DNA from: Serinicoccus sediminis
Lineage (GTDB): Bacteria > Actinomycetota > Actinomycetes > Actinomycetales > Dermatophilaceae
Direction of reading: 5' to 3'
Assembly: GCF_004153545.1 (NCBI RefSeq)
Contig: NZ_SDVA01000012.1
Span: 1 to 64,000 of the forward strand
Length of the DNA stretch: 64,000 bases
The notes beneath the pieces are model-generated. The model saw only the letters and a program-made list of their open reading frames with translations, had not been told where the DNA came from and did not search any database. Of the stretch, positions 46,490-48,473 are shown piece after piece. The translations under genes were made by a program, and so were the position numbers. Within the stretch, counting starts at the first letter, position 1; every line of letters starts with the position of its first letter.

Positions 46490-47536
46490 ATGCCTGGACG
46501 CACGCGCTCGCTGCTGGCGCTGCCCAAGGCCCACCTGCACCTGCACTTCACCGGCTCGATGCGGGTGGACACGGTGCGCGAGCTCGCGGACAAGCACGGC
46601 CTGCGGCTGCCGCACGCGCTCCTGAGCCGGTGGCCGCCGCGCCTGTCGGGTCTGGACGAGCGCGGGTGGTTCCGGTTCCAGCGTCTCTACGACGCCGCCC
46701 GGGCGGTGGTGCGGGACGAGGCGGACATGCGTCGCATCGTCCGCGAGGCGGCGCAGGACGACGCCGCCGAGGGGTCGCGGTGGCTGGAGATCCAGATCGA
46801 CCCCACGTCCTACGCACCGTTCGTCGGCGGGCTGACCCCGGCCCTGGAGATCGTGCTGGACGAGGCGCGGGCGGTCTCGACGGTGGGCGGGACCCAGGTG
46901 GCGGTCGTCGTCGCGGCGTCCCGGATGCGGCACCCCCTGGACGCCAGGGCGCTCGCCCGGCTGGCGGCCAAGCACGCGGGCGAGACCGCGGGCACGGTCG
47001 TCGGCTTCGGTCTGTCGAACGACGAGCGCCGCGGCTGGACGGGCGACTTCGAGCCGGCCTTCCGCATCGCGGCCAAGGCGGGGCTGGCCAGCGTCCCGCA
47101 CGCGGGCGAGCTGCTCGGGGCCGATCACGTCGCCGTGGCCCTCGACCACCTGCTGCCGGACCGGCTGGGCCACGGCATCCGTGCCGTCGAGGACGAGGCC
47201 GTCCTCGCGCGGGTCGTCGAGGAGCAGGTGACCCTCGAGGTGTGCCCGGGCAGCAACGTCGCGCTCGGCGTCTACGGGGACCTGGGTGCAGTGCCCCTCC
47301 CCCGGCTGCTGGAGGTCGGGGCCCGCGTCGCGCTCGGCGCGGACGACCCGCTGCTCTTCGGCAGCCGCCTGGCCGACCAGTACGTCTCCGCCCGCCTCGA
47401 CCACGGGCTGGACGACGACGCCCTGGCCAGGCTGGCGCGTGGCTCCATCGAGGGCTCGGTGGCGGCGCCCTCCACGAAGCGTCAGCTCCTCGCCGAGGTC
47501 GACGCCTGGCTCGACACCCCCGCACCCCCGCCCTGA
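46490..47536 (+). CDS. Adenosine deaminase-family metal-dependent hydrolase
   Basis: A 348-residue TIM-barrel deaminase. The metal and catalytic set is visible: H15/H17 in AHLHLHFTGS, His204 and Glu207 in PHAGE, a DRLGHG segment, and Asp285/Asp286 in GADDP. In true adenosine deaminases the first motif is usually HLDGS and the last NTDDP, so FTGS and GADDP differ and the substrate (adenosine, adenine or other purine) is uncertain. Confidence 0.85.
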   Translation: MPGRTRSLLALPKAHLHLHFTGSMRVDTVRELADKHGLRLPHALLSRWPPRLSGLDERGWFRFQRLYDAARAVVRDEADMRRIVREAAQDDAAEGSRWLEIQIDPTSYAPFVGGLTPALEIVLDEARAVSTVGGTQVAVVVAASRMRHPLDARALARLAAKHAGETAGTVVGFGLSNDERRGWTGDFEPAFRIAAKAGLASVPHAGELLGADHVAVALDHLLPDRLGHGIRAVEDEAVLARVVEEQVTLEVCPGSNVALGVYGDLGAVPLPRLLEVGARVALGADDPLLFGSRLADQYVSARLDHGLDDDALARLARGSIEGSVAAPSTKRQLLAEVDAWLDTPAPPP

Positions 47537-47610: not shown

Positions 47611-47773
47611 GCCGGAGACGTCACACTGAGTCGTCTGCTGAATCAGCCCGCGGCTGAGTCTCCCGGTGACTCACTGGCGACCTGAGTCACCTACTCCCTC
47701 AGATCGCCACTGAGTCACGTCACGCCTCAGCGGCGGGCTGATCCGATGGGGGACTCAGTGTGACGTCTCGGGC
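47611..47773. repeat. Nested 163-bp foldback built from TGA(G/C)TCA-like words
   Basis: Three concentric inverted repeats: 47611-47632 with 47752-47773 (21 of 22 bp, 18 perfect), 47642-47658 with 47726-47742 (16 of 17) and 47666-47680 with 47704-47718 (14 of 15), plus CTGAG/CTCAG at 47682-47686/47698-47702. About 56 bp could pair. Seven GANTC sites lie inside. It sits in the 376-bp gap between the ADA-like and XRE genes. It could be a terminator, structured RNA, operator array or MITE-like element; no target-site duplication was seen. Confidence 0.8.
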
Positions 47774-47912
47774 GACATATGGTGCCGGTATGACACTGGT
47801 CCACACACCCGTCGGTCGTGCTGGGTTGTCCACAGGGTGTCGTCCGAGGGGTGACGGCGCGTGCGGGGCGGGTCAGGGTGGTCCCAGGACACATCGGGCG
47901 GGAGGCTCAGTG
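47774..47912 (+). other. Gene-free leader of the XRE gene with one DnaA-box-like site
   Basis: No open frame with support. TTGTCCACA at 47825-47833 matches the high-GC DnaA-box consensus, but only one copy is present, so it is not an origin. A GGAGG box at 47901-47905 serves the XRE start. Confidence 0.5.
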
Positions 47913-48473
47913 GTGAGCGAGGACATGGGCGGGTCGGGACCGGGCCGGGACGCGGGCGAGGAGGACCCCCTCGGCCCCCACCGGGACCGGGATGCGCCGG
48001 AGCCGCGACTGCCGGGCGCGGCTGAGCAGGTGGGGCTGGCGCTGCGCGCGTTCCGGCGGGCGGAAGGGTGGAGCCAGCGGGCGTTGGCAGACAGCTGGGG
48101 CGTGCACCAGACCCTGGTCGCCCGCGCTGAACGGCATGCCGGCGAGCTCAGCCTCGACCTGACCCTGGAGCTGCTCCGCCGGGCCGGCGTGAGCCTGGCG
48201 GTGGTGGGACCAGACGGTATGCCGGTGGCCGGCTGGGAGGAGACGGACCTCGTGGCGACGGACCGGTCCGGGCGCCGCTTCCCCGCCCATCGGGTCGTGC
48301 GCCCCAGCGCGAACGGGCCGACGTGGTGGTGGTTCCACGACTACTTCGGTCGACGGAGCTCGGGTCCTCGACCGCGGTGGACGGCGGAGGGCTTCGACAT
48401 ACCGCCGGGGACGCGCTACGGCAGGACGCCCCGGCCGTTCGCCCCGGGCGAGGAACCCCGGTGGCCCGCCTAG
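47913..48473 (+). CDS. XRE-family helix-turn-helix protein
   Basis: A 186-residue protein. Residues about 47-95 form a lambda-repressor-like HTH (RRAEGWSQRALADSWGVHQTLVARAE). The C-terminal half has DRSGRRFPAHRVVR and PTWWWFHDYFG, a Trp-rich domain seen in actinobacterial proteins of unknown role. N-terminal 35 residues are low complexity. The GTG at 47913 has GGAGG seven nt upstream. It could bind the foldback just upstream (inference). Confidence 0.75.
   Translation: MSEDMGGSGPGRDAGEEDPLGPHRDRDAPEPRLPGAAEQVGLALRAFRRAEGWSQRALADSWGVHQTLVARAERHAGELSLDLTLELLRRAGVSLAVVGPDGMPVAGWEETDLVATDRSGRRFPAHRVVRPSANGPTWWWFHDYFGRRSSGPRPRWTAEGFDIPPGTRYGRTPRPFAPGEEPRWPA

Follow-up and report, generated by a model that had tools for sequence, protein, structure and literature searches.

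HipB of Escherichia coli binds four TATCCN8GGATA operators cooperatively, and this is the nearest described arrangement to the element analysed here (PMC3920265). Seven-base modules (NATCACN) arrayed as operators are known for the Omega repressor of pSM19035 (PMC3920265). In REP sequences associated with TnpA-REP/RAYT proteins there is one protein gene per palindrome family, the gene has its own element, and further intergenic copies of species-specific sequence are dispersed in the genome (PMC6006769). Operators are common among autoregulated HTH proteins, and arrays of them are already known. A described pair of an XRE gene and a palindromic array, or a family of such genes with their own fast-changing dispersed arrays, was not found in the open-access literature, which is weak evidence of absence.

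The present element shares with the hipBA operators the HTH type of the protein, the inverted half-sites with a 7-8 bp spacer and the position of several tandem, here putative, operators upstream of the gene. It differs from them in that no HipA-like partner gene is adjacent, the C-terminal region of the protein is of unknown fold, and the 10-12 half-sites form a strict 28-bp array with fixed inverted ends and copies elsewhere in the genome. With the Omega heptad arrays it has in common the seven-base modules, here putative operators, whereas the Omega protein is of the RHH type and plasmid-borne, and the present system is chromosomal, has an HTH protein and specifies every second heptad. The single protein gene per palindrome family, the element at the gene itself, the dispersed intergenic copies of the cognate palindrome (three in Serinicoccus and over 12 matches in certain relatives) and the species-specific sequence resemble REP/REPtron systems, but here the protein is of the HTH regulator type and has no HUH nuclease motif, the copy number is low, and the Serinicoccus sites are selected in place.

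The window, i.e. the whole stretch of DNA analysed, comprises 64,000 nucleotides of Serinicoccus sediminis. At 47611-47773 the first-pass annotation had described a 163-bp foldback of nested inverted repeats. Single-strand folding of a 186-nt stretch confirmed it: the predicted energies were -119 kcal/mol (plus strand) and -120 kcal/mol (minus strand) as compared with -73 and -72 kcal/mol for shuffled sequences (z -9.9 and -10.3), none of 200 shuffles was equally good, and a repeat search delimited arms of 81 nt with 77% complementarity. The foldback is real, but it is a by-product. The segment contains five 28-bp units (CTGAGTC-N7-GACTCAG-N7) in tandem, each of which is palindromic, and such an array must fold back on itself, which accounts for the nested inverted repeats. 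The direct repetition with its exact 28-bp period (unit starts at 47626, 47654, 47682, 47710 and 47738) had been overlooked in the first-pass annotation.

The five units occupy 47626..47758 and can be written as CTGA[GT][TC]C-N7-G[AG]nTCAG-N7; TGA and TCA words alternate every 14 bp along the array, giving 10 half-sites, and the 7-bp linkers between the units are rich in CCGCC or GGCGG. Between orthologues both the words and the linkers are conserved. The array is flanked by inverted ends, GGAGACGTCACA on the left and TGTGACGTCTC on the right. The left end (CCGGAGACGTCACA) spans 47612..47625, and such an end was present at all arrays of the five carrier genomes (5/5) described below; the right end (TGTGACGTCTC(GGG)) spans 47759..47772, as defined by reading the arrays and by comparison of orthologues. 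None of these three features has a strand assignment. The excess of GANTC sites noted earlier was also borne out: seven sites fall in the 163 bp, where about 0.26 would be expected from the 103 sites of the whole 64-kb window.

The array has as its neighbours a gene for adenosine deaminase (46490-47536) and, on the plus strand, one for an XRE-type protein (47913..48473), and it lies upstream of the latter, as the first-pass annotation had noted. The XRE gene starts about 150 bp downstream of the array, its start codon being uncertain (47910, 47913 or 47925), and is followed by an opposite-strand ORF without Pfam match and by MurB. The encoded protein has a HipB-like HTH (core from 48030) and a C-terminal region with the motifs RRFPAHR, WWW and WTAEGF. 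Its HTH is nearest to those of HipB, HigA and ClgR: it matched TIGR03070 with an E of 4e-7 (29.8 bits, below the curated cut-off of 71.65), and HigA and HipB as profile hits with 8e-7 and 1e-4, respectively, with HipB/HigA hits in the PDB. The matches point weakly but consistently to the HipB/HigA group. No hipA kinase gene was found beside the regulator gene. Pfam matches were to HTH families only and covered just the HTH part, the C-terminal region having no known relative; the H-x-H signature of HUH Y1 transposases was absent from the conserved core. The AlphaFold model obtained with two input sequences was poor (pLDDT 47).

Three arrays were found in this genome: the window copy (C8), C9:36648-36808 and C15:13568-13760, the last of which has six units. 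Five of the 32 genomes of the genus are carriers, each with exactly three arrays, and an exact-pattern search gave no array in the other 27; the pattern is not exhaustive, since it recovers all but one of the three present in this genome, and BLAST was in agreement. Gene neighbourhoods indicated that the same three orthologous sites are occupied in all five carriers, the S. chungangensis copy of site 1 (the fifth) having been placed by its flanks. Site 1 is the adenosine deaminase-XRE junction, site 2 follows a dihydrofolate-reductase-like gene, with an adenylosuccinate-lyase-like gene nearby, and site 3 is beside a GNAT-like gene, the names at sites 2 and 3 being judged from sequence. The genes on either side run in tandem at sites 1 and 2 and diverge at site 3, where three outgroups that share the gene pair have no array.

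The three copies are 70-76% similar. Two copies from a single genome resemble each other no more closely than do copies taken from two genomes at different sites, and homogenisation between them is therefore not seen. Serinicoccus had no array beyond the three fixed sites. A scan of 84,980 species revealed no genuine end-to-end array outside Serinicoccus, other exact matches failing the unit test, and no similar DNA was found in phage and plasmid collections. Flanks of the arrays, read by eye, had no target-site duplication that stood out. The suggestion that the element is a MITE is not supported by these data: five species share three fixed orthologous sites, with no further copies and no homogenisation. 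Similar copies at non-orthologous sites were not found.

Orthologous arrays of equal unit number were compared by segment. Identity was 94% in the ends, 84% in the words and 84% in the linkers, as against 56% in the inner N7 and 62% in the flanks, a comparison indicating that purifying selection acts on words, linkers and ends only and that the inner N7 drifts like flanking DNA. Of 144 half-sites, 143, 143 and 141 retained the T, G and A of the word (letters 2, 3 and 4), respectively, and 137 the last C. This conservation pattern is the apparent signature of protein-read sites, each kept in place by selection. The two positions between TGA and the last C vary, and for this reason GANTC methylation sites were rejected as the point of the element.

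The two half-sites of one unit vary independently. Words matched their own mirror at 77% and a mirror shifted by one unit at 74%; the inner loops matched their mirror at 35%. Linkers matched theirs at 46% as compared with 27% after the shift, an effect arising through sites 1 and 2, and the linkers of site 3 all have the same orientation and are unable to pair. With no covariation between half-sites and no gain from true over shifted mirror pairing, what is conserved is not a hairpin or structured RNA, and covariation was rejected as a conserved feature of the Serinicoccus arrays. What the first-pass annotation had asked of relatives, conservation or compensatory change, was thus found in part: the binding words are strongly conserved and base pairing is not.

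The XRE homologues were examined for elements of their own. At the same adenosine deaminase-XRE junction, a different array, composed of other words, is present in six outgroup species within the genus. Close XRE homologues usually have their own array or a single palindrome just upstream, again with different words. Homologues in other contexts, e.g. beside tRNA-Gly, have arrays of their own with a 28-30 bp period and ends of the type GGGGACGTGACATTGG...CCAATGTCACGTCCCC, and more distant paralogues have one palindrome, e.g. GAGACGGGTGT-CTGAGTC-N7-GACTCAG-ACACCCGTCTC. In other families of the order homologues are preceded by the single form TACGTCA-CTGAYCC-N7-GGRTCAG-TGACGTA. The single-form pattern with exact 7-N7-7 spacing was frequent in several gene-bearing genomes and rare and irregular in most others, with one exception (G044), which has seven single-form sites and no XRE gene above threshold. 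For one locus (L081) the assignment was ambiguous, and upstream of eleven distant homologues (L204-L210, L212, L213, L303, L304) no recognisable element was found.

Most genomes examined contained further, dispersed copies of their own element, with more than 12 matches in some relatives; the counts from one survey, in which nine candidates per genome were scored, are minima. Within the genus, outside Serinicoccus, 25/37 dispersed copies lie between convergent genes as compared with a baseline of 17%, which derives from 65 gaps in Serinicoccus loci and a simple, composition-based gene caller. In other families placement was mixed (11 tandem, 9 convergent and 7 divergent; 8, 7 and 3 in a second count), and the idea that copies always lie at the 3′ ends of convergent genes, which held inside the genus, was dropped. 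One genome (G244; L308, C1:427738-427852, and L310, C1:471406-471504) has two XRE genes, of which one follows an array with a 30-bp period and the other two single palindromes.

The word was compared with the recognition helix of the protein. Gln at one helix position was accompanied by a TGA word in 10/10 groups, and Lys, Arg or Pro at that position by TGC/TGG in 15/15 groups (Fisher p 3e-7); the 25 word calls behind this figure were made by eye and unblinded, from groups that are related by descent and not fully independent. L071, which has mixed words, and loci lacking a recognisable element are outside the table. An automatic search for TGabc-spacer-palindromes gave majority calls that agreed wherever a word was found, and was mostly empty downstream of the genes; in many loci it found no word, and it gave single minority TGA words in L073 (Arg) and L080 (Lys). 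Contacts between Gln and adenine are common among HTH proteins of this class. By this comparison, the word co-varies with the recognition helix.

We consider it probable (about 0.75) that the element is an array of ten HipB-like half-operators bound by the product of the adjacent XRE gene, with autoregulation at this locus and two more targets in the genome. This reading, one of several offered in the first-pass annotation, is drawn from the anatomy of the array, the selection on words, linkers and ends, the presence of an own element upstream of most close homologues and the co-variation of helix and word, and predicted binding is what this comparative evidence supports. XRE dimers would read CTGA..C / G..TCAG, with half-sites N7 apart, similarly to HipB on TATCC-N8-GGATA, and adjacent dimers would probably occupy neighbouring positions on the array. 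The array-bound protein would control the XRE gene itself, and the two other arrays, as well as the further sites in relatives, would be additional targets. That the protein binds, that it does so cooperatively, in which direction it regulates and what part the dispersed sites play is what we infer from the sequences. Several points count against the operator array: convergent-gene placement, as seen for the genus copies (placement is mixed in other families), is atypical of promoter operators, many of the more distant XRE homologues have no recognisable upstream element, the helix and word calls were unblinded and from related groups, and the C-terminal region lacks a known relative and a good model. 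The system represents a natural series: the members of a single protein family have no fewer than five binding words between them, their arrays range from 1 to about 10 units, and the dispersed copies share the word. The recognition code of a HipB-like HTH should therefore be directly readable, as should the concerted change of regulator and dispersed sites, and a small number of proteins should suffice for tests. A role for the dispersed copies can be tested as well, at convergent junctions in the genus and at origin-proximal sites in the complete genomes examined.

The very strong predicted hairpin, together with some perfect single hairpins in which a base pair has changed symmetrically and with the many genus copies at 3′ ends, would fit a long hairpin acting in the transcript as a structured RNA or bidirectional terminator. 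We regard this as highly improbable, since the Serinicoccus arrays lack covariation, their inner loops and the site 3 linkers are not complementary, Rfam gave no match up to E 1, and all three arrays lie in tandem or divergent regions, not convergent ones. A large terminator, as proposed earlier, is not required, and would leave the per-unit conservation and the recognition-helix correlation unexplained. In G254 single palindromes occur in tandem at a spacing of about 57-60 bp (L263, L265, L266, L319), and their arms are symmetric (CCC/GGG or TCC/GGA) at 13/13 sites, unlike the asymmetric Serinicoccus half-sites; this may reflect a pairing constraint, a symmetric-dimer constraint or recent duplication. 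Dispersed REP-like palindromes, spread by the XRE protein in a REPtron-like pair and tolerated mainly between convergent genes, would account for the single gene of each element family and the cognate element in front of it, for separate elements belonging to separate paralogues in one genome, for the several dispersed intergenic copies and their convergent bias in the genus, and for the outgroups in which site 3 is empty. This is nevertheless unlikely: the XRE protein lacks the HUH motif, and the Serinicoccus sites, fixed in five species, with no new copies or homogenisation and each still under selection, are unlike decaying mobile copies.

A purpose other than transcription could be read from two features that may be linked to replication. 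Between the array and the XRE gene there are two TCCACA boxes (47800 and 47829, 29 bp apart; 47800..47834, plus strand). The second lies inside TTGTCCACA (47826-47834), which matches the actinobacterial DnaA-box consensus (PMC4285127) and is the only TT[AG]TCCACA in the 64-kb window. TCCACA was found in 41/54 XRE upstream regions, often twice at a distance of 29-30 bp, and in 4/54 downstream controls, which suggests that the DnaA-like box is part of the XRE/array system. In five complete dnaA-first genomes the origin-proximal 30% of each arm holds 21/26 element sites (KS p 1e-6), in a test that was conceived after the positions had been seen, leaves out the single hairpins of G244, and uses sites related by descent, one site list being a BLAST minimum. 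The clustering and the box pairs would fit a replication-linked site to which the XRE protein binds and which is centromere-like or organises the chromosome, a reading we hold to be improbable because the test was post hoc, shared ancestry and local spread make the sites non-independent, the list is incomplete for at least one genome and the single hairpins of G244 show no origin bias. It is likewise quite doubtful that a previously undescribed HTH family with the RFPA/WW region at its C terminus, each member with a fast-evolving palindromic array and a DnaA-box promoter and marking the origin-proximal chromosome, constitutes a replication-linked organising system. The arrays of G244 are near the origin and its listed single palindromes mostly are not.

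Some homologues of the XRE protein are joined to further domains. As judged by eye, the reading frame of the homologue continues into a pyridoxamine-5′-phosphate-oxidase-like domain in L085 and L086 (G018 and G008, respectively), and the homologue in L083 (G007) is continuous with a glyoxalase-like domain.
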